A stretch of DNA of 32,471 nucleotides from Spirosomataceae bacterium (GTDB lineage Bacteria; Bacteroidota; Bacteroidia; Cytophagales; Spirosomataceae), in the NCBI GenBank assembly GCA_025455785.1, contig JALOLV010000001.1, forward strand, positions 1-32,471, read 5' to 3'. Both the position numbers and the translations under genes were made by a program. The notes under the pieces were generated by a model. It saw nothing but the letters and a program-made list of their open reading frames with translations, had not been told where the DNA came from and searched no databases. Positions 1,150 through 32,329 of the stretch are shown in pieces (the first letter of the stretch is position 1; every line of letters starts with the position of its first letter).

Positions 1150-2152
1150 CTATCTCTTTGTTATTGATACAACTATTTTTACTTGATTAAATGAGTTTAT
1201 ATTATTAGGGTAAACAATACCTGCCAAATGACCGTCTAAAATTTGTTGCTGCACAAGTCCGTAGGGTGTTATTACAGCAGTTGGCATAGTTATGGCAACA
1301 TTATAAGGACCTGATAGTGATTTTGAGTTCCAAAAGGCTAAACCATCGGGTGTCATCCAGAATTGCTTAGAATGGTCTAATGTATTAACACCAAAGCCAA
1401 AGTTTCCTCCTTTCCTCATAAAACTACTATATTCTGCTTCGCTCATATTTCGGTACATCGTTGTATATCTTATAGGCTTTTTTGAAGCATCTCCTTCTAC
1501 ACTTGTAGCAAGTGTTGCAAACCAACCAACAGTTCTAACAGCCCCTTTTCCTAATGTACCTAACCAATGCCCCCAAGGTATAGCAGAAGGTGGTGGTAGT
1601 CTCTTGAGTGCCGTTACAGATGCTGTAATATTCCATAAGAAAGGGTTTTGCTTACTGCCTTTTGGTGGGTCGCCCTGTGCCATTGCGGTTTCTGTATTGT
1701 GTAGTTGTAATTTAACCCCCCAATCTGCCAACCCAAACCCAATACCACCCATTACTCCGCCTGTTACAGCACCCCATAATGCTCCGCTTCCGTTTCCGCC
1801 GTTTAAAGCATCACTGATACCACCTGTTACACCCCCTGAAAATATACCATAGCCAATGCTTTGACCTAAGCCAACTTTAATGGGGTTTGGTGCTACTGCT
1901 CCAAAGTACCCACCAACTGCCCCAACAATACCAGGTTTTACAAAATCCCACATATTTTTGGGCATTGTACTCTTAATCATATGCTTGGCTGCTCCTGTAA
2001 ACAAGCCCACCATAAAGCCTATCATCACAGGGTTTCTACCGTCGGGGTCAATGTAGCTCAACGGGTTATTCATCATCCCAGCATACCCACTCAAAGAGTA
2101 ATTATCTACTGGGTCTATGCCATCAAAACGCCCTGTGTTTCCATCGTATTTT
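1150..2152 (-). pseudogene. Orphan RHS C-terminal tip (silent toxin cassette): KYDGNTGRFDGIDPVDNYSLSGYAGMMNNPLSYIDPDGRNPV + glycine-rich pre-toxin region + divergent CT
   Basis: Duplicates the RHS core/tip boundary of the 2784-9680 gene; in-frame TGA immediately upstream of KYDGN and no ATG before the homology (the ORF-track start is a TTG). Confidence 0.8.
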
Positions 2153-2160
2153 CAACTGGA

Positions 2161-2775
2161 TTATTTTTGTACTATCAGCGGTTTTATAAAGATTTCAGTA
2201 GTATACGGCATAAAATCGCCGACTATATTTTTATAAAATTCATCTTGAACCCTTTTTCTCTTTGCTACAATTTTTCCATTACCACTGTAATCAATACTTT
2301 TAAACGTAACTATATATGGACATCCTTTTTTGAAGTTTGAAACCAAATATTTATGGGATATTTCACTGTGTTTAGGAAGTAGAATAAACAGTTGATTCAA
2401 AAAAGATTCAAAACCATCCGATTGTTCACGTGCTAATAATGTATCTCTTTTCGAGAAACCATCAAAACCATTTTTCTTGTAGATTTCATTTAGACTTAAA
2501 TACAAACTTGATTGAATTTCTTTGTTTTGGTAGCCATCGACTTTTACGAGATTAAAATTAAGACAGTCATTGTTATAACAGTTGTTACTGTCTGTGTTTT
2601 TAGTACATCCCTCAATAATTTTATATGTGATAAAATAATTATTATTACTCTGATTGTTTAATGTAAGTGTTAACATATCTTCATTAGAATTATATTGAAG
2701 AGAACCTATAACTTTCGCTTGTTTTTCACAAGAAAAGAGAAAAGTTAGAAACATCGTCGATAGTATCTTTTTCAT
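2161..2775 (-). CDS. Putative lipoprotein, candidate immunity protein for the RHS tip
   Basis: Signal peptide with lipobox-like MKKILSTMFLTFLFSC|EK; starts 9 bp after the RHS stop. Confidence 0.6.
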   Translation of the reverse strand: MKKILSTMFLTFLFSCEKQAKVIGSLQYNSNEDMLTLTLNNQSNNNYFITYKIIEGCTKNTDSNNCYNNDCLNFNLVKVDGYQNKEIQSSLYLSLNEIYKKNGFDGFSKRDTLLAREQSDGFESFLNQLFILLPKHSEISHKYLVSNFKKGCPYIVTFKSIDYSGNGKIVAKRKRVQDEFYKNIVGDFMPYTTEIFIKPLIVQK

Positions 2776-2783
2776 AAAAATAT

Positions 2784-5700
2784 TTATTTTGGGAAGATTA
2801 TTATTCGTGCTAACTGTTTGATAGGATTTAAAAGGGATGCTTCAGCTCGTGTACCTAAAAAATTAGTTGCTTGAGATGGAAAATTAGCAAGTTGCCATTT
2901 ATTAATCTTGATTAAATCGAGAGTCATTCCTTGTATTGCAACATGCCCCTCAGTATCAAGTAAGCCTGATAGTGCTTTCTCAGAAGCCTCGGACGAAAGA
3001 CCAAGGTTATTGTGTATAACATGTCCCATTTCATGAGTCATTGTATATGCTAATAATTCTTTTGATGCAAAAGATGCCTTTGAAAAGAATATGCTTTGTT
3101 TAGAGCCACCCTTCCAAACCCTGTAATAAGTAACAGCAAGAACATCATCACCTTTAGAATTAGTAAATGAACCTCTTGAATTTACCTTATAGCTTTTTGG
3201 CATCCAATCTTTTGAGATATTAGAAACACCTTTGACATCTGAAAAATTTAAGTCTTTCATTTCTTTTAAATATTCGTTTGTATAAGGAGCTTCTTCACCA
3301 CCTTTTATTGCTGGGACTTCAGATGCAAGCAATAAATGAGGCTCTCTATATCCCGTCCAAATATTTGCCCCTAATTTATCGGCTTGCAACCCTCCTGAAA
3401 TACCGCCAAAAATACTGCCACCAATGGCACCCATTAATGCTCCTCTACCAATATTATTACCATTTAATGCTGCTCCCAAAGTTCCTGTGATAGCTCCGCT
3501 TCCTGCACCGTATGCCATACCGGGTAGAATACCTATTGGAGCATAAAACCCTAATATTCCCCCAACCGCTCCTGTGATAGCCCCCTTTCCAAAACCACCC
3601 CAGTAGCTTTTGCCCTTTCCTACGCTTAATGTGCCACTTATATGTCCACCCATGAAAGCACCGATTGCCATCGCTATTAGTACAGGGTTTCTACCATCTG
3701 GGTCAATATAACTCAGAGGGTTATTCATCATCCCGGCATACCCACTCAAAGCGTAATTATCTACTGGGTCTATGCCATCAAAACGCCCTGTGTTTGCATC
3801 GTATCCTCTCGCATGAAAATCATAAGAATTGTACCCAAAAGCATCAATGTATTCTTGGCTCTGGTAAAGCCATTGCCAAGAGCTATCCACCCCGATTCCT
3901 TCCAAAAGCGTTCCGAATGGGCTATAATGGTTTTCTTGGGCAATGTAAACAGAATCATTGAGTTTTTCAAAGATAACCCTTGTATTACCCAGATGGTCGT
4001 TGATAAAATACTGATAATGAGAACCTAATGTGTCAAATCTAATTTTGCCTTCATCGTGCAGGGCGGCTGTGAGGGTATCATTACGGTATAGTAAACTACC
4101 AACATAGTCTGTTCGGATGGTGCTACTCCCATTCACAATCTTTTGGTAGAGCTTCTGCCCATCGGCAGTATAAACGTTCTCAATGTACTTATCGGTATCA
4201 AAGAAAATATGGCTTGGTAGCCCTAAATAGTTATAACGAATACTATCTATACCTTTGTTGGCATCTGTTTTTAGGCTACCATCGGGGTAGTAAGTATAAG
4301 CCCCTACTCCACCCGTTAGAGCTTCTTTAAAGCCGATATTATCGTTGGCGGCATCGGTAAGACCTGTCAATTGGTTTTGATAGGTGGGGTATATATAACT
4401 TAAACTGTCAATCCGTTGCCAATTATTAGTAGATTCTAAGCCAAATCGGTTGAGTTTCTCTATATTACCGTTGGCATCATAAGCTACATTTTCATCATAT
4501 TTCTCATTCGTTTTACCTTTAAAAGCTGCTTTGGTGTAGCGTTGCGATTTATCATAGTCATACGTAAAGCTCCGCAAAGTAGTATCTCGGCTTGTTTTCC
4601 ATGATTGTTTACTTAGGTTTCCATCAAAATATCTACCGTCTTCAAAATAATCAAGTTTCATTGAGAATACTTTGCTACTATCCAGTTTACCCGCAGGAGT
4701 CAGGTTAATACCTCTGAGATTGCCCCTTATATTGTAGCTGTAATCAACCTTTTGTATGCCGCTACCGATAAAAGCAAGGTAGTTGGTATCGGGCAAAATG
4801 GTTGTGCCAGGTTTGAGCAAAATGTATTTTTTGGCCACATCAATCACCCGATTATTCAAGGTCTCATTTTGCCTGATGATACTGTCTTTTTGGGCTTCGT
4901 TGAGATTTTTCCTAATCATCCTCCCAATTTCGTCATATTCATAGGTTGCCAGTAGCTCGGGCGAATGACCTGTAAAATAGTGTATTGCTTGGGTTTTACG
5001 TCCTACATGGTCGTATTGATAGGTCGTTTTGCTTTCAATTTCTGAAGAATACGGAATACTGCCCGTTGGTTTGCGATACAGCGTTCGCTCTTCTAATAAC
5101 TGACCTATAAAATCAAATACAAAATCATTCTGGTTAATATCTCCAAAGCGGTTTTCGGCTTGTGATTGTATCAATCGGTTTTGGTCATCGTAGTACATGG
5201 CGGTACGTAACCATGCTTGGGTATCTAATCGCCGAACTTGATTCCCCGTTTGGAGCCCCTTCACATTGCCATATTTGACACCTCTGTAAGGTACAAAATT
5301 TAATGTATCGGCAGGTTTCCATGAGTAATCATCATAGTAGTTTACGACCATCACATCTGGTTCTATAACGGGTATAGAACTCGGGAAACTACGATTGGTA
5401 TATCCCAGTATTCCGCCTGTGGGCGTAGTTTCTTCATATTGTTTTATTAGTGTGAGTGTATCAAATGTAGCTTGTAATGTGGCTCTGGTACTGTTATTGG
5501 GTAGTATTCCTGCCAGAGCCATTCTGCCATAAGCATCGTATTTACTAAATCTCCATTGGTTATTGGTTCTGATTCTGGCATCCTGCTCTAAAACGATTTG
5601 CCCTAAACGATTATAAACTACATAGCTCCAACCTGCATCCGGTGTGTGTTTTTCGATTATTCGATTTCGTTTATCATATTTCATCATATATACACCCACC

Positions 5701-8700
5701 AAATAACTACTTGAAGCGATATTGGTATTGTCGGGTATCACTCCATACATTTTCGGAGGAATGATTAGAGCTAAACGACCTAAATAGTCGTAAACGTAAG
5801 TTGTGATTAGATAATGACTTGTTGATGTACCATCACCTGTAAATTGCACATGTTTTTCAAGGATTCTACCATCTTTGTCGCTGTAACTTATAACAGCTTG
5901 CTGTTGCTCATCAATACCTACGGTTTTTAGAATCTGATTGCCTGAATATGTATTGATATTGAGATTACCGTTATAATCTAATTCATATTTGGCAATTCCA
6001 AAATTGCCTGTTTCAAACTTTTGTTCGGTCTCTCGATTAGGTCTAAACGCTGCTCCTACGCCGATACCCTTAAATGCCCTACTTAATGGTGAGTTTTCGT
6101 ATTGTGTTACTTCGGAGTAAGGAGCTGTGTCGTTATAAAAAGTTTGAGCCAACGATTGACTACCCGATTGGAAATTCCCCGTTGCAATTGGGCTAACGAC
6201 TGGTAAAATATTCTTTTGAGGGCGACCAAAGGTATCGTATTCGGGTGTACTACTCAGCAAATCTTTAGCTTTTGGCGATGCTTTGTAGGCAACAGATTGT
6301 AATGTACGCCCGCTACCGTCACTGTAAGATACAGAAGTACTAACTTTTTGATAGTCTTGATAGACATTTCGGGTACTATCTCTTGGGCTTCTGACAACAA
6401 CCCTATTTTTTGTAGTATCAGTATTGAATGTGCCTGATGTATTGATTAGATTTTGTTTGAAATAAGGGTATTCATAGTGGGATAGAATATAACCATCCTT
6501 GTCGGTTATTTGCTTTAATTGCCCGACTTTATGTAACTCACTATCAGTATAATATTTGTAATTAATGGCTAATTTATTCGGGCTTATTTGTTTAGACAAA
6601 CCAAAAATTTTGGTTTCATATTCATATTGGGTTGTATCAATGACTACACCACCAATATTATTGATACTCCTTATAGGTAAAACCCCTGCGGTATCGTAAT
6701 CTGTACCATTAATTGAAGCCCCAAAGCCTTTTACCTTTTTTGAAAATCCTTTGTTGTTGTAGTCTTGATATTCTACGATTGGATAAAAATTGGTGTCTCG
6801 AACCAGCGAATCATCACTCACTCGATTATAGATAACATCACTAAATATTGCCTCTCCAATATTATTTAATGCGAACGACTCTTTTAGAAAGTAGCCAAAT
6901 TGGCTATTTGTGGTTACATTTAAGCTATCATAACGATTAAATGCTGCTTGTGCCACTCGTGTACCATTTTTACTGACTATTTCGATGGTAGGAGTTAATA
7001 TGTGTCGCCGTTGCATTTCATAAATGGCTCGGGCTTGTGTGCCTAATCGGGGAACATGGATAAAGTATTCGGTGGTATCACAATTATAAGGAGTACCATA
7101 CTCAGGGTCATAACAAATGCGAGGTATTAGAACTGTATCTAAACCAAAATTAAAATCTGCAATATATTTTGTTAAACTACTTAGTTGGTGGTTTTGCCCG
7201 TCACTACTCTCAATTTTTACAAGGAAATTATGTTGCCCAGGGTATGTATTGTGGTATCCTGATAATATTTCATCTTTGTATGTAAACTCTTGTATTGTTG
7301 TGATAGGGTTAGTACCATTTTGAGAAAACACTTTACTGGTTTGTTTTTCTAAGTGATACCGTTTAAATAATTGACTGTACTCTTCTAAGAAAACACCTCC
7401 ACAACAAGAAGCATAGCCCAAGTTATAACCGTTTACTTTAAAGACCTTACTTGAAAATGTATTATCAACAGAATTGCCTTGTAAGGTCGTGTACGCAAAT
7501 GTCTGAACGGATAAAGTATCCCCATTTTGATTTAATATTTCGGTTCTAATGGGGTTTCCACTCTTAAAATCATGGTAAACAATTACCCCCTCTTTTATTC
7601 TCTCAGGTTGATAGTAGTATGTCGTATCACATATCTGATTAGGATATTCTCCCGTACAATTAACAACGATTCTTTCAGTAGTTATTTCTGTTGTATCATG
7701 GTCAAACGTGTAGATAGTTTTACCTAACGTATTATCTATATTATTTTTTATTTGCTCAACCACTCTGGTATATCCCACAACTGGTCGTCCTATTTCCGCA
7801 AATAATCGGTCATAAATACCTGAATTAGCACCTATTGCTGCAAAGTTATTTTTGAAACGATAAATGGGCTTCATACTAAGAAAACCAGACGGACGGGTAT
7901 CGGGTAATACGTAGCTGTAAGACTTGATGGTTTCGATGCCAGAAATCAAATCTTTGTTTTTTATTTCTTTAATTCTCGCTCCACCAATTGGCTTATATGT
8001 ACCATTGCTATTTTTATAATTACGAGCTTCGTGTAGCTCATAAATAAACTTTGTATAACTACCAGTAGAAACGACTACACTATCTAAACTACCATAAAAT
8101 GCAAAATCTATATTTGTTTCTCTATTACTTGTATTAGGAGTACAGCCAGAAAAGAATGAGTCTCTCGGGATTAGCCCTGTTAGAAAACGATTGCCTGTTG
8201 AGCCATTTGGAAATCCCCAATGGTCTATTCCGTAGTTTAATCTACTTTTGCCATTAAATGTAGGAGAATCACCATTGTACCTAAACCGATAAGTGGTTTT
8301 ATCTGGGAAAGTTACTTTTTCTAACCGTAGTCGTTTTGTATGAGAATAGCCTACATCATCGTGAGTATATCCGCTTGGTAGGTCGTCCTCAAAGCCTGTA
8401 AAATGACCGTAGTCAAACTGGTATTTTAGAGTATCAGTGGGATTTACCTTGTCCATTACTGTCATTTCAACCAATTTTTTTGCATTAGATTGGCTGGTTG
8501 GGTTTTCATCCCAAGAATCAAGGTCTAATCTTGGAGGGGCGTTAATATAACAAATTTCGTTTCCTGATTCTGTTTCAAAACATTCTCTGAATCTTCGGTT
8601 GAACTCAACCTTTTTATGGTCTGTTGTGATACTGCCCAATGAAGCCCCCTCAACGTAAACCTTATTGATACGTTTATCTACTTGTGCTGGGGTTGGGCAT

Positions 8701-9680
8701 ACCCCAGATGATTGGCTTTCTGCTAATTTAAAAAATGAGTATTGGACTACATCGTATGTAAAGTTTATCTCTTGCCCATAAGGTGTGATGATTTTTCGTA
8801 GATACCAAGCTGATGTTACTGATTCATTTTTCCAAAAATGATTCCATCGGCTTGCACCTGGATAAATATTTTCATCTTGTGCTGTTTTGACATCTACCTC
8901 TGTACTTTTTTCATAAGCCCCATCACCAAAAACATATTTTGTTCCATCGGGCATCAAAACATCAAACCTTGTGAATTTTCCTACATCTGTTGTTCCATCA
9001 AATTCAAAAATGGGTATTATCTCAATATCTGTATCGGGGAAAAATATAAACTTTGATACTCCTGAATATTTATACATAAATTTATAGGACTGACCATTGA
9101 TATTCATGTAAAAAACATCGGGTTCTGTATCATCATCTACGGTGCTTAAACCTGTATAGCCATACCAATAATACCCTTTTCTTTCATAACTACTCGACCA
9201 CGTATTAATATCAAACTTACCCTCGTCTGGAATCCCCCTTACTTGTCGGGTAATCATACCCCCAGCCATTAAAGACCAATTCATTCCACTCCATGAAGCA
9301 ACCTCGTGTAATTTCATACCAGAGGCATTGTAATTTAAAGCAATTGGTACATTCAATGCACCTTCTTGCAAATTATAGAGTGGTAATGGAACGATGGCAG
9401 TACCAGTAAATTGATTTACTGCAATATCTTTAAAGCGATTTATGTCTGCGGCTTCTGGAGGGGCTGCTGGTGCAATTCCCGAGGGTAGGTTTCCAAAAGA
9501 AGAGATAGTAGGAATACCCAGATTTGTAGGTTTGTTAGATTCAAATTGTTTGAGTTCTTCGGGTGTAAAAGTCCGAACTGGTGGATAACCGTGATTTGCG
9601 ACCTTAACTGAGATAACTTGCTGTGCAAAAGTAATAAGGTTTACCAAGACTAAAATTAACAGTAAAATTACTTTTTTCAT
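2784..9680 (-). CDS. Large secreted RHS-repeat protein with RHS-associated core and a metallopeptidase-like C-terminal tip (MTHEMGHVIHNN)
   Basis: Signal peptide MKKVILLLILVLVNLITFAQQ; many YDxxGRxxxxxx repeats; core motif DHLGNTRV...YSPFG...GYNSYDFHARGYDANTGRFDGIDP; HExxH in the variable tip. Confidence 0.92.
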   Translation of the reverse strand: MKKVILLLILVLVNLITFAQQVISVKVANHGYPPVRTFTPEELKQFESNKPTNLGIPTISSFGNLPSGIAPAAPPEAADINRFKDIAVNQFTGTAIVPLPLYNLQEGALNVPIALNYNASGMKLHEVASWSGMNWSLMAGGMITRQVRGIPDEGKFDINTWSSSYERKGYYWYGYTGLSTVDDDTEPDVFYMNINGQSYKFMYKYSGVSKFIFFPDTDIEIIPIFEFDGTTDVGKFTRFDVLMPDGTKYVFGDGAYEKSTEVDVKTAQDENIYPGASRWNHFWKNESVTSAWYLRKIITPYGQEINFTYDVVQYSFFKLAESQSSGVCPTPAQVDKRINKVYVEGASLGSITTDHKKVEFNRRFRECFETESGNEICYINAPPRLDLDSWDENPTSQSNAKKLVEMTVMDKVNPTDTLKYQFDYGHFTGFEDDLPSGYTHDDVGYSHTKRLRLEKVTFPDKTTYRFRYNGDSPTFNGKSRLNYGIDHWGFPNGSTGNRFLTGLIPRDSFFSGCTPNTSNRETNIDFAFYGSLDSVVVSTGSYTKFIYELHEARNYKNSNGTYKPIGGARIKEIKNKDLISGIETIKSYSYVLPDTRPSGFLSMKPIYRFKNNFAAIGANSGIYDRLFAEIGRPVVGYTRVVEQIKNNIDNTLGKTIYTFDHDTTEITTERIVVNCTGEYPNQICDTTYYYQPERIKEGVIVYHDFKSGNPIRTEILNQNGDTLSVQTFAYTTLQGNSVDNTFSSKVFKVNGYNLGYASCCGGVFLEEYSQLFKRYHLEKQTSKVFSQNGTNPITTIQEFTYKDEILSGYHNTYPGQHNFLVKIESSDGQNHQLSSLTKYIADFNFGLDTVLIPRICYDPEYGTPYNCDTTEYFIHVPRLGTQARAIYEMQRRHILTPTIEIVSKNGTRVAQAAFNRYDSLNVTTNSQFGYFLKESFALNNIGEAIFSDVIYNRVSDDSLVRDTNFYPIVEYQDYNNKGFSKKVKGFGASINGTDYDTAGVLPIRSINNIGGVVIDTTQYEYETKIFGLSKQISPNKLAINYKYYTDSELHKVGQLKQITDKDGYILSHYEYPYFKQNLINTSGTFNTDTTKNRVVVRSPRDSTRNVYQDYQKVSTSVSYSDGSGRTLQSVAYKASPKAKDLLSSTPEYDTFGRPQKNILPVVSPIATGNFQSGSQSLAQTFYNDTAPYSEVTQYENSPLSRAFKGIGVGAAFRPNRETEQKFETGNFGIAKYELDYNGNLNINTYSGNQILKTVGIDEQQQAVISYSDKDGRILEKHVQFTGDGTSTSHYLITTYVYDYLGRLALIIPPKMYGVIPDNTNIASSSYLVGVYMMKYDKRNRIIEKHTPDAGWSYVVYNRLGQIVLEQDARIRTNNQWRFSKYDAYGRMALAGILPNNSTRATLQATFDTLTLIKQYEETTPTGGILGYTNRSFPSSIPVIEPDVMVVNYYDDYSWKPADTLNFVPYRGVKYGNVKGLQTGNQVRRLDTQAWLRTAMYYDDQNRLIQSQAENRFGDINQNDFVFDFIGQLLEERTLYRKPTGSIPYSSEIESKTTYQYDHVGRKTQAIHYFTGHSPELLATYEYDEIGRMIRKNLNEAQKDSIIRQNETLNNRVIDVAKKYILLKPGTTILPDTNYLAFIGSGIQKVDYSYNIRGNLRGINLTPAGKLDSSKVFSMKLDYFEDGRYFDGNLSKQSWKTSRDTTLRSFTYDYDKSQRYTKAAFKGKTNEKYDENVAYDANGNIEKLNRFGLESTNNWQRIDSLSYIYPTYQNQLTGLTDAANDNIGFKEALTGGVGAYTYYPDGSLKTDANKGIDSIRYNYLGLPSHIFFDTDKYIENVYTADGQKLYQKIVNGSSTIRTDYVGSLLYRNDTLTAALHDEGKIRFDTLGSHYQYFINDHLGNTRVIFEKLNDSVYIAQENHYSPFGTLLEGIGVDSSWQWLYQSQEYIDAFGYNSYDFHARGYDANTGRFDGIDPVDNYALSGYAGMMNNPLSYIDPDGRNPVLIAMAIGAFMGGHISGTLSVGKGKSYWGGFGKGAITGAVGGILGFYAPIGILPGMAYGAGSGAITGTLGAALNGNNIGRGALMGAIGGSIFGGISGGLQADKLGANIWTGYREPHLLLASEVPAIKGGEEAPYTNEYLKEMKDLNFSDVKGVSNISKDWMPKSYKVNSRGSFTNSKGDDVLAVTYYRVWKGGSKQSIFFSKASFASKELLAYTMTHEMGHVIHNNLGLSSEASEKALSGLLDTEGHVAIQGMTLDLIKINKWQLANFPSQATNFLGTRAEASLLNPIKQLARIIIFPK

Positions 9681-9985: not shown

Positions 9986-10648
9986 TTATATTTCGTTTTT
10001 TATAAACCTTCTTAATTCAACAGAATATACAAGTAAAATGTCATTTACTTGTTTTAATGAACTGACTAATTCTTGATAATTTGGATATAATTTTTGTATT
10101 TCTTGTGGTGTTTTATTTTTATTCTCATTATCCTCTGAATGATTGGTATACCATTTTTTAAATTTTGCTTGGTGTTCAGTTAAATGAGGTCTAAGTCCTT
10201 TATTTAGTATATCAGTAGTTAGTTCTATAAGTTTATCTGATGCTGAACTTTTTTGTAGTAACTCGCCAGAAATGTTTTTCAGTTCTTGCCTGATTACTTG
10301 AAATAATGAGTACCAAGAATTATAGACCTCAATTATTAAGTCATGGTTTTCATCGAATGGGAGTGCTGCTTTTCTCGTTATTAGCTCAACGTATATTTTA
10401 TGTGCTATTTCGAGATTTGTAAAGTTTCGCACAATATCATATTCAACTTCTCCTCCTCCCACACTGACTTTCATTTTAACAGGGATAATTTGCGAATAAT
10501 GATTGTTTTTACTTTTGACAGATTTAATTATCAGCCAAATAATCAAACCTATAACGGATAATATAAAAACAATAAATAAACTTATTTGTATTGTAAAACC
10601 CCAGGTTTCGGGGTTGAAAGAAAGGTCGATTATCTTTATATCATTCAT
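9986..10648 (-). CDS. Membrane-anchored protein (one strong N-terminal TM helix), last gene of the hypermodification/TIR operon
   Basis: TM segment ISLFIVFILSVIGLIIWLIIKS; ATG at 10648 overlaps the upstream stop. Confidence 0.7.
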   Translation of the reverse strand: MNDIKIIDLSFNPETWGFTIQISLFIVFILSVIGLIIWLIIKSVKSKNNHYSQIIPVKMKVSVGGGEVEYDIVRNFTNLEIAHKIYVELITRKAALPFDENHDLIIEVYNSWYSLFQVIRQELKNISGELLQKSSASDKLIELTTDILNKGLRPHLTEHQAKFKKWYTNHSEDNENKNKTPQEIQKLYPNYQELVSSLKQVNDILLVYSVELRRFIKNEI

Positions 10649-11270
10649 TGTAGCTATATCGTTCAAAGTTTTCGTTAAAACTTATCGGGTCGGCGTGAAT
10701 ACCCATTTCAAATTTTGAAAGCCAATCTAAAAAGCTATTAATTTCTTCAAAGTTAGTAATCGTTTTATACCCCTGACCCTTTTTTAGAAAAGATTCGTGC
10801 AACTGTTCAGGAAGTTTACGAGCAAGTCTTCCAAAATAATAAAAATTTTCTGATACTAAGACAAAGGAACTTTTAGTATCTCGTGCGATATTTACACTAT
10901 TCGGACTACCATCTTCATTACTATGATGAGAGTTTTGTTGAATCCAAATATCGTTCTCCTTGTGATAGATATTATCTCCATACATTTGGACTAAACTACC
11001 ATTAATTACGGGTTTTTTTAATTCAAATCGAGAATCTTCCCAATATTGATTATACGTTAATTTTTCATCTACCCTCATAGCATAGACTAACTTACCCTCA
11101 AAATCACCATCACTTCCTGCAATGTCTTTGCCACCTGTTCCGATAATCCAATCACCAACATTTGCATTTTGTCTTATATCTGCTTTACATGTTGCAAGTG
11201 TACATAAACCATTAAAAGGATTTGGGGCAAACCCATAATCACGAACAATGACATAAGAATATATTTTCAT
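10641..11270 (-). CDS. Nmad2-like protein (nucleotide modification associated domain 2)
   Basis: MKIYSYVIVRDYGFAPNPFNGLCTLATCKADIRQNANVGDWIIGTGG matches the characteristic N-terminus of this family as I know it; start probably ATG at 11270, not the track start 11279. Confidence 0.7.
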   Translation of the reverse strand: MKIYSYVIVRDYGFAPNPFNGLCTLATCKADIRQNANVGDWIIGTGGKDIAGSDGDFEGKLVYAMRVDEKLTYNQYWEDSRFELKKPVINGSLVQMYGDNIYHKENDIWIQQNSHHSNEDGSPNSVNIARDTKSSFVLVSENFYYFGRLARKLPEQLHESFLKKGQGYKTITNFEEINSFLDWLSKFEMGIHADPISFNENFERYSYNE

Positions 11271-11272
11271 AC

Positions 11273-11767
11273 TTAACAATTACTAACGATTCGTGTAAAA
11301 GGACTATTCCATGAAGAGTTTTCTCCATCTTCCCATTTAGGAGGTGTCCCACCGCCCTCCAATGCTTCAATTATTTTATTACCTGTCCATCCAACCATTG
11401 CATGGCCATATTTTGCAAGTTTTTCGGGAATATCAGATTGTCCAGCACCATTAATATAGACGCCTACTATACGTTTACCTTTTTTGTGAGCTTGTTCAAT
11501 CTCCCAATCAACCCATGGTCTTGTATGTGTTTCTGGACCAACTAAAACAATGACTGTACCAGACCAGTGTATTCTAAGTCGAAGCAGTCTTTTAATGTAA
11601 TCGGGGTTTGATGCTTGATTCGGCTTTGTGCTATCAATAGAGCTATTTTTAAGCTGATACCCTCTATTACGCAATAGTGTTTTTAATCGCCCTATATGTT
11701 CTTCATCTTGCCCAAAATGACTTATGAAAACATTTTTTGCTTTGCGTTTTATTTTATCTCCAACCAT
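11273..11767 (-). CDS. TIR-like protein of the ThsB/DUF1863 type
   Basis: KNVFISHFGQDEEHIGRLKTLL...YIKRLLRLRIHWSGTVIVLVGPETHTRPWVDWEIEQAHKKGKRIVGVYINGA. Confidence 0.8.
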   Translation of the reverse strand: MVGDKIKRKAKNVFISHFGQDEEHIGRLKTLLRNRGYQLKNSSIDSTKPNQASNPDYIKRLLRLRIHWSGTVIVLVGPETHTRPWVDWEIEQAHKKGKRIVGVYINGAGQSDIPEKLAKYGHAMVGWTGNKIIEALEGGGTPPKWEDGENSSWNSPFTRIVSNC

Positions 11768-11769
11768 TT

Positions 11770-12057
11770 TTAGACTTGTTTATCTTCATCAATAATAATT
11801 AACCCAATTATTGCATATCCGATAATATCTCTCAATGTATCTTCAATACTTTCAAAGTTAGGCGTCTCATTTTTAAGTGATTTTTCTACAAGGGTTTTAT
11901 ACCGACTAACTTTATCCCACAGGTGTACCATATTACCCAACATTCCTAAATCAAAACTTGCTCCCCCATAATCTTGATTTTTTTGAATTAAGATTTTTAT
12001 TATTTCATCTGTTATTAGCCTAACTTTTTCCTCTGTCATTGGATTATGTCGTTTCAT
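11770..12057 (-). CDS. Nmad1/DUF1599-like small protein
   Basis: QKNQDYGGASFDLGMLGNMVHLWDKVSRYKTLVEKS....ESIEDTLRDIIGYAIIGLIIIDED. Confidence 0.65.
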   Translation of the reverse strand: MKRHNPMTEEKVRLITDEIIKILIQKNQDYGGASFDLGMLGNMVHLWDKVSRYKTLVEKSLKNETPNFESIEDTLRDIIGYAIIGLIIIDEDKQV

Positions 12058-13057
12058 AGCTTAATTGATTTAAAATTGGATTAGCGAATTTAGGTTTTTT
12101 ATTTAGATTAAACTTATAAAAGACTTTTGCCCAATCATTTAGAAAATCATCATTAAAATAAGGCTCAGAGTCTAATAGTTTCAATCGGGTTTTTTCTTCG
12201 TATTTCTCTAATTCTTTAATTTTTTCATTAAACTCTGAAAGGTTGGAAAAGGTGGGTGTGGAATAGTCGAAATGATTATCTATTGGGTTTTTGATTTTTG
12301 CCATTTCAACAACCATTGGCTTAAAATCATCATAGAAATGGAAGTTATTAACAATATGGTAGTATTCTCCAATTGGGATGTTTAGAATATATGAGAAATA
12401 TTCTTGAATAAATGTAAAATTAAAAATATTTACCCCACTTGCCCCCCAAATGAAATCATTTGAACGCATATGAGTTATTAAATTAAGCCGATTATCTTTC
12501 GATAGAATAAATTGTAAACTAACAGTACATGGAAAATCTTTTGTGGTTTTTAAATGTCCATTCTCATCGAAACAATCTTTTGTTGGGTCTTCAATTGTAA
12601 TAATTGCTTGGCGTGTAGTTTTCTCTTTTTGAAAGCTCTTCTCTACAAAATCAAATTGGTCAATTACTCCAACTTTGTCAAGGATACTAATTCTATTTTT
12701 ATCAATTTTGTAATCATTAAGGATACCATTTCTATATCTTATTCTTGCCCCATATCCAGCCCTCATATAATCATTTTCAGCATATTCGTAAAGTTTTTTT
12801 GCATAATGCCCAATTAAAGACATATCATTCCTACCAAGCCCAATCCAGAGTGATTCAGCATAAGGTAAGCTGAACTTCCACTTCCGTGGACTTATTGTCA
12901 CTAATCGAGCTTTTGGGTTACTAATTTTTATTATTACTGGTTCTGGGAGTTCATAGCAAATATGATTTCGTACATTTCTTATTTGATAATTTGACAGCAA
13001 AAGGTCGGACATCCCTACTAAAAAAGAGTTAATTCCGTTGAATTCATAGGTTTGCAT
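12044..13057 (-). CDS. Thymidylate-synthase-like protein (TS / pyrimidine hydroxymethylase superfamily)
   Basis: Active-site-like DFPCTVSLQF and RSNDFIWGASGVNIFNFTFIQEY (compare TS PPCHxxxQF and RSxDxxxGxPFNIAxY). Confidence 0.75.
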   Translation of the reverse strand: MQTYEFNGINSFLVGMSDLLLSNYQIRNVRNHICYELPEPVIIKISNPKARLVTISPRKWKFSLPYAESLWIGLGRNDMSLIGHYAKKLYEYAENDYMRAGYGARIRYRNGILNDYKIDKNRISILDKVGVIDQFDFVEKSFQKEKTTRQAIITIEDPTKDCFDENGHLKTTKDFPCTVSLQFILSKDNRLNLITHMRSNDFIWGASGVNIFNFTFIQEYFSYILNIPIGEYYHIVNNFHFYDDFKPMVVEMAKIKNPIDNHFDYSTPTFSNLSEFNEKIKELEKYEEKTRLKLLDSEPYFNDDFLNDWAKVFYKFNLNKKPKFANPILNQLSYETT

Positions 13058-14025
13058 GGTTCTATCCTTTCATTTATTCCCCATTTGGGTGGAAAAAAGT
13101 AATTAATTTGGTTCAGATTAGGGGAATTATATTTTTGTTTAATTCTAACATTATCTACTTGCAAACTCGGTAATGCAACTCTTAGATATTTATCTGTTTC
13201 GCAAAAACAATTTTGAAGGTCTATTAGTGTTAAATCTCTTCCAAATAAGTTAGAAAAACTTGTGTAACCGAATTCTTTTTGATATTTTTCAAAATTATCC
13301 TGCGTGTACTTAATAGCATCTTCCAAGCTATTTTTTCCTAAATCTTCAAAGCACTTTTTTATGCCTCTAACAGCACCTATACCAGCCTTAACAAAAGAGT
13401 TTTCATCAAAGTTTATTACTGGAGAATAATTTAGGTCTATTGAATATTGATAAGCTAAAAAATCGCCAATAAAAGAGCAATCATTCAATATATTATAAAC
13501 TTTTTCTAATGATTTGGCTGTAATTATTTTTTTTATTTTTTCACTTTTCATAATCTCAGTTTCGACCATTTTTAACCATTTTTCGTGTTTTGAATCAAAA
13601 TGGTCATATTTTCTATGCGAGCCAGTCATCATGTAAGCATTGTTAAAAATAGGTTTATTTTTAATACGTTCAGCAAGTAATGAAGAGATTTTATCGACAT
13701 TAAAATTTGATGTATTAAGCGGTCCAATCCGATTTTCTAAATACTCCCATGTTTCTATTTTATTGAAAATTTTGAATACTAATATTCTCAGGATAATATC
13801 TTCTTCTTTCATTTTTGTACAATCAACACCGTATATTACATTACTAATTAAGTATTGACTAACCCTATCACATGCCCTATAAACATTCGTAAATTTATTA
13901 TTTGCGAGAATTTTATCTTTTGAGAATGGGTAGTTTTCACCATTACATTTTTTCCAAAAAATGTTCATTCTTTCTTGCACAAAATAGAAATAATACTTGT
14001 ATGCTTCGGGTCTAATCTTTATCAT
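13018..14025 (-). CDS. DNA-base hypermodification-type protein (HMUDK-helical / alpha-glutamyl-putrescinyl-thymine pyrophosphorylase clade)
   Basis: YFYFVQERMNIFWKKCNGENYPFSKDKILANNKFTNVYRACDRVSQYLISNVIY is the characteristic 'FTNVxRxxDRVSQ' N-terminal block of these families; 40-bp overlap with the TS-like gene. Confidence 0.7.
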   Translation of the reverse strand: MIKIRPEAYKYYFYFVQERMNIFWKKCNGENYPFSKDKILANNKFTNVYRACDRVSQYLISNVIYGVDCTKMKEEDIILRILVFKIFNKIETWEYLENRIGPLNTSNFNVDKISSLLAERIKNKPIFNNAYMMTGSHRKYDHFDSKHEKWLKMVETEIMKSEKIKKIITAKSLEKVYNILNDCSFIGDFLAYQYSIDLNYSPVINFDENSFVKAGIGAVRGIKKCFEDLGKNSLEDAIKYTQDNFEKYQKEFGYTSFSNLFGRDLTLIDLQNCFCETDKYLRVALPSLQVDNVRIKQKYNSPNLNQINYFFPPKWGINERIEPCKPMNSTELTLF

Positions 14026-14043: not shown

Positions 14044-14443
14044 GGGTATAATTAAGCATTTAGGTGTAAAGTTACAAGGTAAAAATATAATACGCTTATA
14101 ATCAGCAAGTTAAGCCTTTAAATGTCATTTTTTAATATTTCAACAAAAATGAATAATTTATACAAAAAATTTGATTGTTTGTTTTGTATAAAATAAAAGA
14201 ACGTTTGGTATAAACAGGATTTGCATAAAAATGACTTTATTTTTATGCAAAAAGTGTTTAAAAATATTCATTTTATAACTTTCTTGTAACAAATCTAAAT
14301 TTAAAACTCGTTTCTTAAAGCATTTCAGTACTCAATATCATCAAACTAAAAACAATAAAGCATCTTTTTGAATATAAACTATTGATAATAAATCAATTAC
14401 ATAGGTTTCATGTAACTTTACGCCTAAATGTTTAGGAACACCC
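14044..14443. mobile_element. MITE-like element copy A (~400 bp, TIR about 32 bp, no transposase ORF)
   Basis: Ends gggtataattaagcatttaggtgtaaagttac / gtaactttacgcctaaatgtttaggaacaccc; reverse-complement homologue of 31816-32181. Confidence 0.85.
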
Positions 14444-14990
14444 TACGTTGGTATTACGATTTAATCTCTGGTATTTCGTTGTAATACGTCTGGTGTTACG
14501 ATTTAATCGTTTGGTATTACGTGTAATATGTCGGTATTACGATTTAATACGTCGGTATTACGCTGTATTACGTCTGGTATTACGTCGGTATTACGATTTA
14601 ATACATCGGTATTACGATTTAATACGTCTGATATTACGATTTAATCTCTGGTATTACGCTGTAATATGTCGGTATTACGATTTAATACGTCGGTATTACG
14701 ATTTAATACGTCGGTATTACGCTGTATTACGTCTGGTATTACGCTGTAATACGTCGGTATTACGCTGTAATACGTCGGTATTACGATTTAATACGTCGGT
14801 ATTACGCTGTATTACGTCTGGTATTACGCTGTATTACGTCTGGTATTACGCTGTAATACGTCGGTATTACGATTTAATACATCGGTATTACGCTGTAATA
14901 CGTCGGTATTACGTTTGGTATTACGTCGGTATTACGCTGTATTACGTCTGGTATTACGTTGTATTACATCGGTATTAGACGGTATTATGC
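14444..14990. repeat. Tandem array of about 28 GGTATTACG-headed units, mostly 21-22 bp (e.g. GGTATTACGCTGTAATACGTC, GGTATTACGATTTAATACGTC, GGTATTACGCTGTATTACGTCT) with some 10-12 bp half-units
   Basis: Manual parsing of every unit; GTATTAC-GCT-GTAATAC dyads. Confidence 0.95.
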
Positions 14991-15583
14991 TTTTTTAAGT
15001 AATTATATACTGTCCCATAGGCTACACCTGCACGAATACTTATCTGGTTCATTGATAATCCTTGTTTTTGTAATTCAAGGATTTCGTTGAGTTTATGTAT
15101 AGGTAGCTTCGGTCTCGAAATATTCTTACCTTGTACTTTGGCTCTTTGCATTCCTGCCTTTACTCGCTGACTTATCAACGAACTCTCAAATTGTGCCAAA
15201 GAAGCCATGACATGAAAAATCAATTCACCCGTTGGGGTTGTGGTGTCAATGTTTTCTTGGTAAGAAATGAAATCTACTCCCAAAGTCTGAAACTCTTTCA
15301 GGGCATTGACCAATGCTTGAGTCGAACGGGCAAATCGGTCGTATCGCCATACTAACACAACATCCAGTTTGCGTTTTTTGGCAGCATCCATCATCTGTTT
15401 GTATTGGGTTCGTTCTTGGGTAGTCCCCGAGGCATAATCTACGTACTCTCCCACAATTTCAAAGTTTCGCCTTTGGGCATATTCTCTCAATTGTAAAAGT
15501 TGGGTTTCGGGGTCTTGTGTTTTGTCGGTAGTAGATACCCTTGCATAGAGGGCAACACGATAATTTTTTGGGGTTTGATACAT
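14975..15583 (-). CDS. Small serine recombinase (resolvase/invertase type) with C-terminal HTH
   Basis: VALYARVSTTDKTQDPETQLLQLREYA; VWRYDRFARSTQALVNAL; GELIFHVMASLAQFESSLISQRVKAGMQRAK; ATG at 15583 preferred over TTG at 15598. Confidence 0.95.
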   Translation of the reverse strand: MYQTPKNYRVALYARVSTTDKTQDPETQLLQLREYAQRRNFEIVGEYVDYASGTTQERTQYKQMMDAAKKRKLDVVLVWRYDRFARSTQALVNALKEFQTLGVDFISYQENIDTTTPTGELIFHVMASLAQFESSLISQRVKAGMQRAKVQGKNISRPKLPIHKLNEILELQKQGLSMNQISIRAGVAYGTVYNYLKKHNTV

Positions 15584-15597
15584 GATAATAATTATCA
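15583..15597. promoter_or_regulatory. TGATAAT-A-ATTATCA dyad overlapping the recombinase start codon; possible autoregulatory/recombination site
   Basis: Perfect 7-bp arms with 1-nt centre. Confidence 0.4.
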
Positions 15598-15925
15598 AAA
15601 AGGATTTCCTTTACAAAGTTCCTTTTTAATCTCGTAAACACCTCATTTTCAAGTATATTTTTTACCGAAATTTTGACACCCATTTTGATAAGTGCTTTCG
15701 ACAGATTTGACTCACTGATTTTTAAAAATATAATTTGGCAATATTATTATTAGCCAATATAATTACTTATAAAAACTCTTAATTAATGATAACAAATTCT
15801 TAACATTGGATTTGGTGCAAAAAAAAATATTTAATCTATCTTTAGATAAAAAAATAAAACCCAAAAGCCAACATAAAAATTAAAAGTCCGACAACCTAAC
15901 AAATCAGTTTTAAATCGGATGAAAC

Positions 15926-25382: not shown

Positions 25383-25751
25383 TTAGTCGTATGTGTTAGG
25401 TTGATTCGTTTTAGCAAAAATAGAATATTTATAGGACTATAAAGTATAAATTTTATAAAGTTATTGCTTACCCTCAGTTTATATGTGTTTAATAATTATA
25501 TCACAAAAAGCTGAAAGTAATATTTAGCTATGAATCTATCTGTAAACTGCCGCCCCGCCCCCCCCTCTTTTATATTATAAAACTTGATTTTTCCTCCTTA
25601 TTTTTTTGATTGATTTCGTGGAAAACCTGTGTACAATTCCTAAAAGAAATAAAAAAAAGTATAGCATCAATAATTTGAGTTATTTATCAATATTATATTT
25701 GATTGATTTAGGGTGGGTGTAAATAATTGATAATAAGTATTTTATGAGTTG

Positions 25752-26338
25752 AAAAAGGAGGTTTGGAATAGGTAAAACGGAGATTTGGAATAATTTAAGA
25801 GGTTTTAAAAAAGAGATTTGGAATAAATAAAACGGAGATTTGGAATAATTTGGGAGGCTACAAAACGGAGTTTAATTTTGTTTTCTCCGTTTTTGTTGAT
25901 AAATTGCTTTTGCATTACAATTCTAACAAAAATACTAAAAAATTACTGTATTAACTATTGTATAATCTTGACAAAAACGGAGGTTTGGAATGTATGTGCA
26001 AAAATACTGGTTTTTGGGGGGCTTTCGGTTGTGATTCGGTTCTATTTCAGCTCAATTTCGAGTAAAAAGCTCAACTATTAAAACTGAAAACGGAGGTTTA
26101 GAATAAATAATTTTCAAAATAGTAATTAAAAAAACAAATTTATTTTATTCGCTATTAATATATTTATTATATGTATAGCGTTGCAATTTAAAGATTTACC
26201 TTTAAAAACGGAGGTTTGGAATAAGTAATTGAAAAATACTGACTTTTTGGGGTTTTCGGTTGTAATTCGGCTGTCTTTCGTTTCTATTTCGTGTGAAAGA
26301 CGCAAAAGTAAAACCGCAAAACGGAGATTTAGAATAGA
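25752..26338. repeat. Origin iterons: about nine copies of AAAACGGAG(G/A)TTTGGAATA (some degenerate)
   Basis: Copies near 25752, 25774, 25806, 25828, 25862 (partial), 25972, 26086, 26204, 26318, immediately upstream of rep. Confidence 0.9.
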
Positions 26339-26374
26339 TATACGTAGTATGTTTTACAATAAATATGTTTTGAT

Positions 26375-27361
26375 ATGAGTGATTTGAATCAAAGTGTAAT
26401 TAGTTTTAGCAGAAAATCTGATAATTACCAACCTAACCCAATAACAGAAAGCCGACAAGAATTTAGTGAAATCGAGAAAAAAATTGTTGTTTATGTTATT
26501 AATCAGTTAGGACAAGTTGCTAAAGATTGGAAAGGGCAAAATATTAGCTTCCCGATTCCTTTTACCGAGCTAACAGGTACTAATCATGCCAAAATAAAGA
26601 AAACGGCAGAGTCTATCATAACTAAGAGGATAACATTACTTGATAAGGTGTCTTCATCTGATAATGAAACTTACTATCATCTAATAATCCCGTTTACTGA
26701 GGTTTTATTGAGAAAAATCAATGGGAAGGACTACCTACAAGTTGTGATGAATAGTTCCGTTGTCCCTTTTTTTATTGAGCTGGGCAAGCATTTTACAAAA
26801 TACAGTTTAGATATAATGCTTTCGCTTGGTTCAATATATGCTCAACGTATGTACGAAATTATTATGTTACATGTAGGACGCAAACAACGTAAGTTTAATT
26901 ACACCGTTGAGAAATTAAAATTTATGTTTAACTGCCCCGAGAGTTATACTTACAATGAGGTTAGAAGATGGGCTTTAGACGTAGCACAAAAAGAACTAAG
27001 AGAGAAAGCCAATATTATTTTTACATACGAGCCTTCTAAGAAAGAAGGAAAAAGAATAGTTGAGTTACAGTTTTATGTAAAAACAGAATTAGAGATTTCG
27101 CTCGAAGCAATTGCAAATGAAGCAGAGCAATTTGAAAGAGGAACCCCTATACAACAAAGAGATTGTATTATGAGGCTCCTGAATAATTACTCATTCACGA
27201 GAGAGCAACAAACGATAATAATGGGGGATAAAGAAAAATGGGCAATTTTTTTAAAGATTGATAGTGAAATTTATAATGGAGTTAGAAAAGATATAGATAA
27301 CCCAACTGCTTATATTGCTAAAAGCCTTGGCTTTAATGTCAGTGCTAAGAAGAAAAGATAA
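26375..27361 (+). CDS. Plasmid replication initiator, Rep_3 superfamily
   Basis: Winged-helix Rep pattern: ...ITKRITLLDK...YSLDIMLSLGSIYAQRMYEIIMLHVGRKQRKFNYTVEKLKFMFNCPESYTYNEVRRWALDVAQKELREKANIIFTYEP; adjacent to iterons. Confidence 0.92.
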   Translation: MSDLNQSVISFSRKSDNYQPNPITESRQEFSEIEKKIVVYVINQLGQVAKDWKGQNISFPIPFTELTGTNHAKIKKTAESIITKRITLLDKVSSSDNETYYHLIIPFTEVLLRKINGKDYLQVVMNSSVVPFFIELGKHFTKYSLDIMLSLGSIYAQRMYEIIMLHVGRKQRKFNYTVEKLKFMFNCPESYTYNEVRRWALDVAQKELREKANIIFTYEPSKKEGKRIVELQFYVKTELEISLEAIANEAEQFERGTPIQQRDCIMRLLNNYSFTREQQTIIMGDKEKWAIFLKIDSEIYNGVRKDIDNPTAYIAKSLGFNVSAKKKR

Positions 27362-29811: not shown

Positions 29812-29863
29812 GGGACAATTAAACATTTAGGTGTAAGTTACGCCTAAATGTTTAGGAACACCC
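29812..29863. mobile_element. MITE-like remnant copy C: the two TIRs fused with interior lost
   Basis: gggacaattaaacatttaggtgtaagttacgcctaaatgtttaggaacaccc. Confidence 0.8.
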
Positions 29864-29879
29864 TTAAATGTTATAATTT

Positions 29880-31721
29880 CTATACTTTAGGCATATAATC
29901 GAATTTAGCGATACGCAATAAAGCTGCAATCAGTAATAAGATGTGTCCTTCATGATAATCTCCATAATCATAGAAACAATGTGCCACTTGGTTTCTCAAA
30001 TTCATTCCACCCTCATTTAAGAATAAATAGTTGAATAGTAAAAAATCATCATCATTAAAATATTTATGTAAGTCTTCAAACTTTAAAATCTCATGTATTA
30101 GAGCTTCTTGCATTCCTTTTTCTTTTAGTACACTTGTAGCAATGCCATTCATCCTACAAAATGCTCTGAAGAGACCTTCAATTTTTAGAGTTAAACTATC
30201 AATACATAAAATGTAGCTTGCCTTGTAACCATCCTTTGTTTTAGATGCCTTAACCTGCATAAAAAATTCAACAATTGCTGGAGTAATAAGAGCTACCAAC
30301 TGTAATGGCTCTTCACCTTCCTCATAATTGCTTTTTAGGTATTGCTTCCCAAGCCACGTCCTATCAGTCAGAAAAGTTAAAAAATTCTCAAATGTTAAAT
30401 GCCCTAACCCAATGCCATCAATAATTATGTTGTGCAAATAAGGTAGAACACTGAGGTTCAAAAATATTTTGTAACTATTGTATAAGTTATCTTTATCAGG
30501 TTCTAATTTATTATTTACAATATTTTGATTAGTATCAAATCTAATCTGTACAGCATACTTCAAAAACTCCTCCTCTTGATAAATACCATTTTGCAAATGT
30601 TTTATTTTAGGAAATAAGAAGCCGCCAGCAATTATTGTATAAATTTCGTACGGGTGTTCTTTTAATATTCGAGCTGAATATTCTCTAATAAAATTATGAT
30701 AGATTCGATATTCTTGTTGCCGTGTGTCATCAGGTGTGTATCTAATTTTTGATAGTTTTACATCTGGCTTTAATGTAGCATACATTTTTTCTACTTCTTT
30801 TCTTTTCTCAGTATTTGAGGCTCTTTGAAAAGCCTTTATAGCTTTAAAAAAATAATCTTGCTTTATCCAAAATCTATCAGTTTTTGTTTCTAATTCTGCC
30901 ATCCTTAAATATGCAAGCCCTATTTCATTATACCATTTTTTTATATCTGATGATGTCTTTTGTGCAATTTTAACGGCTAATGGTAAATAATAATTTACCA
31001 TTTGAAAATCTAAATCTACTGAATTGGCATCTTTTAGTAGTGATTCAAATACCTGTAAAGTATCTTTAAAATCTTCCACTTTGAAAATCTTGGGATATTC
31101 AAGCATTTTTTGTAAAATTTGAATTTTCACCCAAGACTCTATACGATTAGTTTTAAAAAGTAAGGTTTTAGTTACCTCTTTTAATGAGCTTGTATCCACT
31201 TTTATTTCTCCACTAAGACCTACTGCATTCTTAAATAATTCTAATATTTTGGAAGCAATCTCGTGGTATTCATTTCCATTACAAGCATCTATATAATGCT
31301 GAATGGCACTAAGGTAATTCTCAATAGCGATAATAGCATAAGTATTTTTCTTGATATAATTGGGGCTTCGCCAGAGTAGATGATTATATCTTGCTTTTAC
31401 AAGTGGGTTTTGTGATTCTACAGCTCTTTCTATTATATAATCAGTTAGTTTATTATCAAATTGAGGTTGTTCAAGGGTGGGGGTGACTTTAGAGGAGAAG
31501 ATTTGAGAAAAAATATTTCCTTCTTCAAAGTTGAAAAATATACAAGCCAATTCCCATTTAGCTTTTTGCTTTCCAGAAGTTGATTTTGTTTGACTACGAA
31601 AGGTTGCCCAAATATCTCTAAAATCCCACCTCCTATCCAAAGAAAAAGCATTATCATCAATCAAAGTATAAACATCTTTGATTGTTTTGACATCTCCTAC
31701 ATTTAGGTCTTTTGCTCTCAA
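29880..31721 (-). CDS. 613-aa DUF4209-like protein with C-terminal HEPN-type RNxxxH motif; putative defence protein
   Basis: LNEGGMNLRNQVAHCFYDYGDYHEGHILLLIAALLRIAKF at the C-terminus; family name tentative. Confidence 0.55.
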   Translation of the reverse strand: MRAKDLNVGDVKTIKDVYTLIDDNAFSLDRRWDFRDIWATFRSQTKSTSGKQKAKWELACIFFNFEEGNIFSQIFSSKVTPTLEQPQFDNKLTDYIIERAVESQNPLVKARYNHLLWRSPNYIKKNTYAIIAIENYLSAIQHYIDACNGNEYHEIASKILELFKNAVGLSGEIKVDTSSLKEVTKTLLFKTNRIESWVKIQILQKMLEYPKIFKVEDFKDTLQVFESLLKDANSVDLDFQMVNYYLPLAVKIAQKTSSDIKKWYNEIGLAYLRMAELETKTDRFWIKQDYFFKAIKAFQRASNTEKRKEVEKMYATLKPDVKLSKIRYTPDDTRQQEYRIYHNFIREYSARILKEHPYEIYTIIAGGFLFPKIKHLQNGIYQEEEFLKYAVQIRFDTNQNIVNNKLEPDKDNLYNSYKIFLNLSVLPYLHNIIIDGIGLGHLTFENFLTFLTDRTWLGKQYLKSNYEEGEEPLQLVALITPAIVEFFMQVKASKTKDGYKASYILCIDSLTLKIEGLFRAFCRMNGIATSVLKEKGMQEALIHEILKFEDLHKYFNDDDFLLFNYLFLNEGGMNLRNQVAHCFYDYGDYHEGHILLLIAALLRIAKFDYMPKV

Positions 31722-31815
31722 TTTTAATGTCTTTAGGTTTTTATTGATACGGAATTATATACTATCTGACATCCTTTATTTTTGTGGGTCTAATAGCTAT
31801 TTTTTTGCTATATCT

Positions 31816-32181
31816 GGGTGTTCCTAAACATTTAGGCGTAAAGTTACATAAAACCTATGTAATTGATTTATTATCAATAGTTTATATTCAAAAAGATGCT
31901 TTAAAAAACGAGTTTTAAATTTAGATTTGTTACAAGAAAGTTATAAAATGAAAATTTTTAAACACTTTTTGAATAAAAATAAAGTCATTTTTATATGCAA
32001 ATCCATCCTGTTTATACCAAACGTTCTTTTATTTTATACAAAACAAACAACCAAATTATTTGTATAAATTATTCATTTTTGTTGAAATATTAAAAAATGA
32101 CTTTTAATGGCTTAACTTGTTGATTATAAGCATACTATGCCCTTACAATGTAGTTTTACGCCTAAATGTTTAATTGTACCC
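31816..32181. mobile_element. MITE-like element copy B (366 bp), inverted relative to copy A, flanked by ATCT target-site duplication (31812-31815, 32182-32185)
   Basis: Ends gggtgttcctaaacatttaggcgtaaagttac / gtagttttacgcctaaatgtttaattgtaccc. Confidence 0.85.
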
Positions 32182-32329
32182 ATCTAACTTCATACCAACG
32201 GCTTGTAATATTTGGTTTTTCTATACAAATAATTTCCATTGATTTTTTACGGAAAATTTCTACTGATTCCGAACAATCTTCGGAATAACAGAATATAATA
32301 ATAAGTGGTAGCAGTAATATTAGCTTCAT
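32162..32329 (-). pseudogene. Small secreted/lipoprotein-like ORF whose 3' end is replaced by MITE copy B
   Basis: MKLILLLPLIIIFCYSEDCSESVEIFRKKSMEIICIEKPNITSRWYEVRW|VQLNI*; removing B plus one TSD gives ...YEVRYSKK*. Confidence 0.6.

Follow-up and report, generated by a model that had tools for sequence, protein, structure and literature searches.

What are the three related, gene-less repeats of this plasmid, and could they have moved? The window, that is the whole 32,471-nucleotide stretch of DNA analysed, is a circular contig whose first and last 99 bases are identical (a 99-bp terminal repeat), which leaves 32,372 unique bp. The plasmid has a Rep_3-type initiator (gene at 26375-27361), together with ParA- and ParB-like ORFs named from sequence only. 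The nearest relatives of its Rep are the Reps of Spirosoma plasmids, and its host is a Spirosoma-like member of the Cytophagales, represented by a MAG that is 66% complete and spread over 534 contigs. Repeated AAAACGGAGRTTTRGAATAA units at 25749-26343, immediately upstream of the Rep gene, are probably replication iterons. Elsewhere, behind an RHS-like ORF of 2298 aa (2784-9680), comes an orphan C-terminal cassette (1150-2094), in which a 131-bp junction is repeated (2019-2149 versus 3674-3804, 91%). The small ORFs behind it (202-1148) could be immunity genes, an assignment again made from their letters alone, and the region 1150-9680 resembles a polymorphic-toxin locus that has a spare tip.

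A sequence-only reading of the window had proposed a MITE-like family in three forms on one plasmid, here A, B and C, with terminal inverted repeats of about 32 bp and no transposase. Our analysis bears this out: the coordinates given for A are exact, B lies inverted relative to it, and both are MITE-type non-autonomous elements (Table 1). BLAST of A against B gives an E value of 2.2e-129, and a separate alignment of the two has 406 columns, 334 of them identical and 46 gapped; the resulting 92.8% identity over 360 ungapped columns is close to the 85-90% estimated by eye. Relative to A, B lacks 40 bp (the main indel) and has a 6-bp insertion, and outside the indels the two diverge mostly at bases 26-50 from the left end. 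The outer 26 bp are identical in the right ends of A, B and C, and all six ends have TAARCATTTAGGYGTAA in common; the proposed consensus was essentially right. Neither A nor B has a transposase ORF, their longest stop-to-stop frames measuring 57 and 66 aa, respectively; tblastn detected no coding remnants of TnpA or TnpR in them, and the element had no match in Rfam.

Table 1. Positions in the window of the three element forms and their parts
Feature	Coordinates	Strand	Remarks
TIME copy A	14044..14443	+	400 bp, no coding capacity; repeat and alignment
Left terminal inverted repeat of A	14044..14081	+	38-bp span; 19/21 against outer 21 bp of L155
Right terminal inverted repeat of A	14406..14443	-	38-bp span; 16/21 against outer 21 bp of L155
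Second conserved block of A	14362..14391	-	bases 53-82 from A's right tip
Three stacked dyads of A, candidate res site	14125..14251	.	dyad scan
TIME copy B	31816..32181	-	366 bp, inverted relative to A, ATCT direct repeats at flanks
Second conserved block of B	31868..31897	+	bases 53-82 from B's right tip
Form C	29812..29863	+	52 bp; near-palindrome of one left and one right terminal repeat, head to head
ATCT direct repeat left of B	31812..31815	.	
ATCT direct repeat right of B	32182..32185	.	

A and B are very probably TIMEs, internally deleted and gene-less derivatives of a Tn3-family transposon with GGGTNNNATTAAACATTTAGG tips. The copies, their ends, their lack of coding capacity and the homology of these ends to an intact Tn3 transposon are direct observations. 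With lengths of 400, 366 and 52 bp and no transposase gene, A, B and C all have the size (50-500 bp) and content of TIMEs, and A and B are also plasmid-borne and present in few copies, as described for these elements. The link to Tn3 came from a scan of GTDB220 contigs with a loose terminal-repeat pattern (GGGTNNNNNTAANCATTTAGG), which gave at least 114 stretches. The matches listed are mostly single and look like chance, with two sets standing out. One is L155 (JALONJ010000526.1), a 4105-bp contig from a Microscillaceae MAG of the same order, with inverted matches at both ends. It encodes a TnpA of 1018 aa (DDE_Tnp_Tn3 2.3e-116, DUF4158) and a serine resolvase (TnpR), measures 4025 bp between its outer ends, and is an intact, autonomous Tn3-family transposon.

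Over bases 1-21, all 21 positions agree with L155 at the left end of B, 19 at that of A and 16 at either right end. A second block of similarity lies further inward: at bases 53-82, the right ends of A and B match both ends of L155 at 25 of 30 positions with zero offset, a score reached in none of 1000 shuffles, and the two ends of L155 itself agree at 26 of 30. This register-exact block argues strongly for a common descent of the ends of A and B and those of L155. The kinship with Tn3-family terminal repeats that is expected of a TIME is thus found in the outer 21 bp and at bases 53-82, whereas the inner half of the repeat (bases 22-38) disagrees (2-5 of 17). The exact parent is therefore not L155, which is a relative of it. 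Wider interior alignments are borderline against shuffles, and no homology to L155 could be detected in the middle of the element. The sequence-only reading had expected as parent an IS making 4-bp target duplications; the parent type is instead a Tn3-family transposon.

The second set comes from contigs of Desulfobacterales, where the L155-type tip has as its neighbour a Tn3 transposase of 1030 aa in L114 and a resolvase gene in L174. The same tip bounds gene-less or nearly gene-less elements at L105:5705-5912 (208 bp) and L144:164-1036 (873 bp). We also noticed that these MAGs (L105, L144, L174:1080) have many GGGTNNNATTAAACATTTAGGG tip copies, one of them apparently inserted into the tip of another; the GGGTNNNATTAAACATTTAGGG-tip elements apparently form an undescribed TIME-like family.

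The flanks are less uniform. A 4-bp target duplication had been proposed for the family, and it was found at B, the sole form with direct repeats (ATCT/ATCT), but not at A (TTAT/TACG) or C (CTAT/TTAA). By chance, four flanking bases would match in about 1 of 256 cases. The target duplications of Tn3 elements are usually 5 bp long; B may have lost one base from a 5-bp repeat (TATCT/ATCT), or its ATCT match may be due to chance. TIMEs generate direct repeats of 5 bp, sometimes 6 bp, on insertion, and these are often absent in database copies (PMC4133298, PMC13367494); only four identified TIMEs had them (PMC4133298). A, B and C have unrelated flanks. The right end of A adjoins exactly a 21-bp tandem array that starts at 14444. 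This array (14444-14977) consists of about 25 units of about 21 bp (GTATTACGCTGTAATACGTCG), many of them palindromic, and ends beside a serine resolvase gene (14975-15598); its 30-base pattern had no match in IMG/VR. One may speculate that A was inserted at or in the array and that an adjacent deletion followed, a known outcome of intramolecular Tn3 transposition.

The proposed genome-wide copy count, made in the 66% complete host MAG and about 600 relatives, yielded no further copy. In a whole-element search of the own genome, 99 relatives and PLSDB, all off-plasmid matches were short, AT-rich and attributable to chance. Strict terminal-repeat patterns gave nothing above control in IMG/VR, GTDB220 and the family and order genomes, and a short terminal-repeat query had no match in PLSDB. 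A 17-mer core gave 33 single matches in IMG/VR, discarded as chance because no inverted partner accompanied them. No autonomous IS with the same terminal repeats was detected in the own genome, in 222 family and 390 order genomes, in IMG/VR or in the strict GTDB220 scan, nor among the matches listed from the loose scan. A Tn3 transposase is absent from the host MAG at its 66% completeness, and relatives in the family and order carry Tn3 TnpA. Restriction to this plasmid, with no duplication-bearing copies elsewhere, had been named as the result that would speak against a mobile family; among the genomes searched the element is indeed confined to the plasmid, but this is outweighed by the direct repeats of B and the shared Tn3 ends.

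Several of these observations count against a Tn3 origin, namely the 4-bp repeats at B only, the GGGT tip (classical Tn3 ends being GGGG), bases 22-38 unlike L155, the lack of a Tn3 transposase in the incomplete MAG and a middle without homology to L155. One could instead regard A and B as MITEs of an IS family that makes 4-bp target duplications, their likeness to Tn3 ends being a coincidence, which would suit the ATCT repeats of B and a short non-coding element with inverted repeats. We consider this very unlikely, given the 21/21 identity of a tip and the register-exact 25/30 block shared with a Tn3 transposon, the same tip beside Tn3 transposases in other phyla, and the failure to find an IS with the terminal repeats of A and B in the genomes and databases searched. 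Least likely of all seems a view in which the three forms never moved, recombination having copied a repeat with a structural or regulatory role peculiar to this plasmid, such as a site for recombination, replication or stability. Confinement to the plasmid, the stacked dyads of A and the bare palindrome of C would fit such a repeat; its precise GGGT/ACCC ends, homologous to transposon ends, the direct repeats of B and the unrelated flanks would not.

If A and B are TIMEs, a complete transposon located elsewhere would provide the TnpA, which would bind the ends of about 38 bp, perhaps together with the second block at bases 53-82. Replicative (paste-and-copy) transposition would place a copy of the element at another site, and either a serine resolvase or homologous recombination would go on to resolve the cointegrate. 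Past mobilization in trans, this resolution step and the origin of C are inferred. In C, almost nothing separates the two terminal repeats, and TTAC occurs close to the join on either side (left ...GTGTAAAGTTAC, right ...CTTTACGCC). We infer that C arose from a TIME by deletion of the centre between the short TTAC of both ends, leaving a bare palindrome that later underwent single-base losses. As RNA, C folds at -23.0 kcal/mol on the + strand and at -18.3 kcal/mol on the other, and it was rejected as a terminator, as the strong hairpin has neither a U-tract nor a terminator call. A 52-bp head-to-head palindrome resembling C, with similar terminal repeats, occurs in a Deltaproteobacteria MAG (L127:2349-2400); with no clean ACCC at its right end, it is only a weak parallel.

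The interior of A contains three dyads, at 14125-14152 (28 bp), 14157-14192 (36 bp) and 14220-14251 (32 bp), separated by 4 and 27 bp. This is similar to the layout of Tn3-family res sites, whose three subsites measure 28, 34 and 25 bp and are spaced by 22 and 5 bp. A triple like that of A appeared in none of 3000 dinucleotide shuffles, in a test devised after the dyads had been seen, and it is no more than suggestive of a res site. The dyad at 14220-14251 is degraded in B, where the res-like layout is weaker, and the similarity of A's dyad region to the intergenic region of L155 or to the DNA upstream of the plasmid resolvase is at shuffle level. One might go further and see in A and B a TIME lineage that stems from a Tn3 subgroup so far undescribed and has a built-in res site and ends in two parts, the tip and the block 53-82, of which lineage the 52-bp form C may be a recurring minimal form with its terminal repeats joined. 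With A and B in opposite orientations, the roughly 17.4 kb between them could then be inverted by a serine resolvase, which may be the one encoded on the plasmid itself (14975-15598). This extended reading is unlikely; if true, the inversion would take in the type I restriction-modification and Rep-Par genes.

The position of A and B directly upstream of putative defence genes, claimed by the sequence-only reading, also holds. A lies 18 bp upstream of the listed start (14025) of the next minus-strand ORF, an HMUDK-domain gene, and B 94 bp upstream of that (31721) of a DUF4209 gene, and 'putative defence' is a fair label for both. The products of the operon at 9986-14025 are an HMUDK helical-domain protein, a thymidylate-synthase-like protein, Nmad1, a ThsB-type TIR protein and Nmad2; we read it as a putative defence system that combines nucleotide modification with a TIR protein. 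A TIR gene also adjoins the nearest plasmid relative of the operon's kinase-domain protein, which is found on a plasmid of Parabacteroides distasonis. The DUF4209 gene (29880-31721), between C and B, matches the PADLOC candidate PDC-S39 weakly in its C-terminal part. Different ends face the two genes (the left end of A, the right end of B), and on a 32-kb plasmid the proximity may be incidental. The suggestion that the elements supply promoters found no support: A, B and C contain no match to the Bacteroidota-type promoter (-33 TTTG / -7 TANNTTTG), and shuffles gave sigma-70-type matches at least as often. A could still act as promoter source for the 14025 gene, because only 18 bp separate it from the start codon.

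Mobilization of cargo in trans had been suggested as well, and in principle this fits the known TIME-COMP mechanism. C and B bracket a single gene within 2370 bp, and TIME-COMPs of about this size are known (PMC13367494); the weak PDC-S39 match of that gene would also speak for this. Nevertheless, the outermost flanks of the pair lack matching direct repeats (CTAT at C, ATCT at B), and B has direct repeats of its own and looks like a separate insertion. It is thus very unlikely that C and B brought the DUF4209 gene onto the plasmid as one unit.

We regard A and B as TIMEs as defined in earlier work (PMC4133298, PMC13367494), belonging to a GGGTNNNATTAAACATTTAGG-tipped Tn3 lineage, and C as a collapsed remnant. 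The kind of mobile element is known, and the host group is new for it. TIMEs have been described mainly from Pseudomonas and Enterobacteriaceae. Our literature search for Tn3-derived or other MITEs in Bacteroidetes gave nothing relevant in the library searched, which does not prove their absence, and annotation pipelines miss TIMEs. Two full-length copies and one collapsed copy beside putative defence genes suggest that Tn3-driven reshuffling by gene-less elements also takes place in Bacteroidota. The tip GGGTNNNATTAAACATTTAGG, present beside Tn3 genes in Bacteroidota and Desulfobacterota, offers a search handle for more TIMEs.

Compared by description, the Pseudomonas TIMEs (TIME1-4, TIME-RES, TIME-COMP; PMC4133298) resemble A and B in being short and non-coding (262 bp), with Tn3-type inverted repeats of about 38 bp, few copies that are mostly plasmid-borne, and often no direct repeats; a Tn3 TnpA has been proposed to move them in trans (PMC4133298). 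They differ in belonging to Gammaproteobacteria and in their 5-6-bp direct repeats, whereas A and B come from Bacteroidota, have GGGTNNNATTAAACATTTAGG tips and show 4-bp repeats at B only. TIME244, IS101, MITESen1 and IMU of Enterobacteriaceae (PMC13367494) are likewise non-autonomous and Tn3-derived, are often found as inverted copies, and some carry a res site. They derive from other Tn3 subgroups, and their movement of cargo is proven or supported by direct repeats, in contrast to A and B, for which none was seen. The L155 transposon shares with A and B the outer 21 bp and, in register with their right ends, the block 53-82; it differs in the inner half of its terminal repeats and in its autonomy, encoding TnpA and TnpR. 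The Desulfobacterales elements L105:5705-5912 and L144:164-1036, like A and B, have the GGGTNNNATTAAACATTTAGG tip at both ends and no transposase, whereas their bases 22-38 are GGAAAAWSCGYCAT-like and their interiors unrelated.
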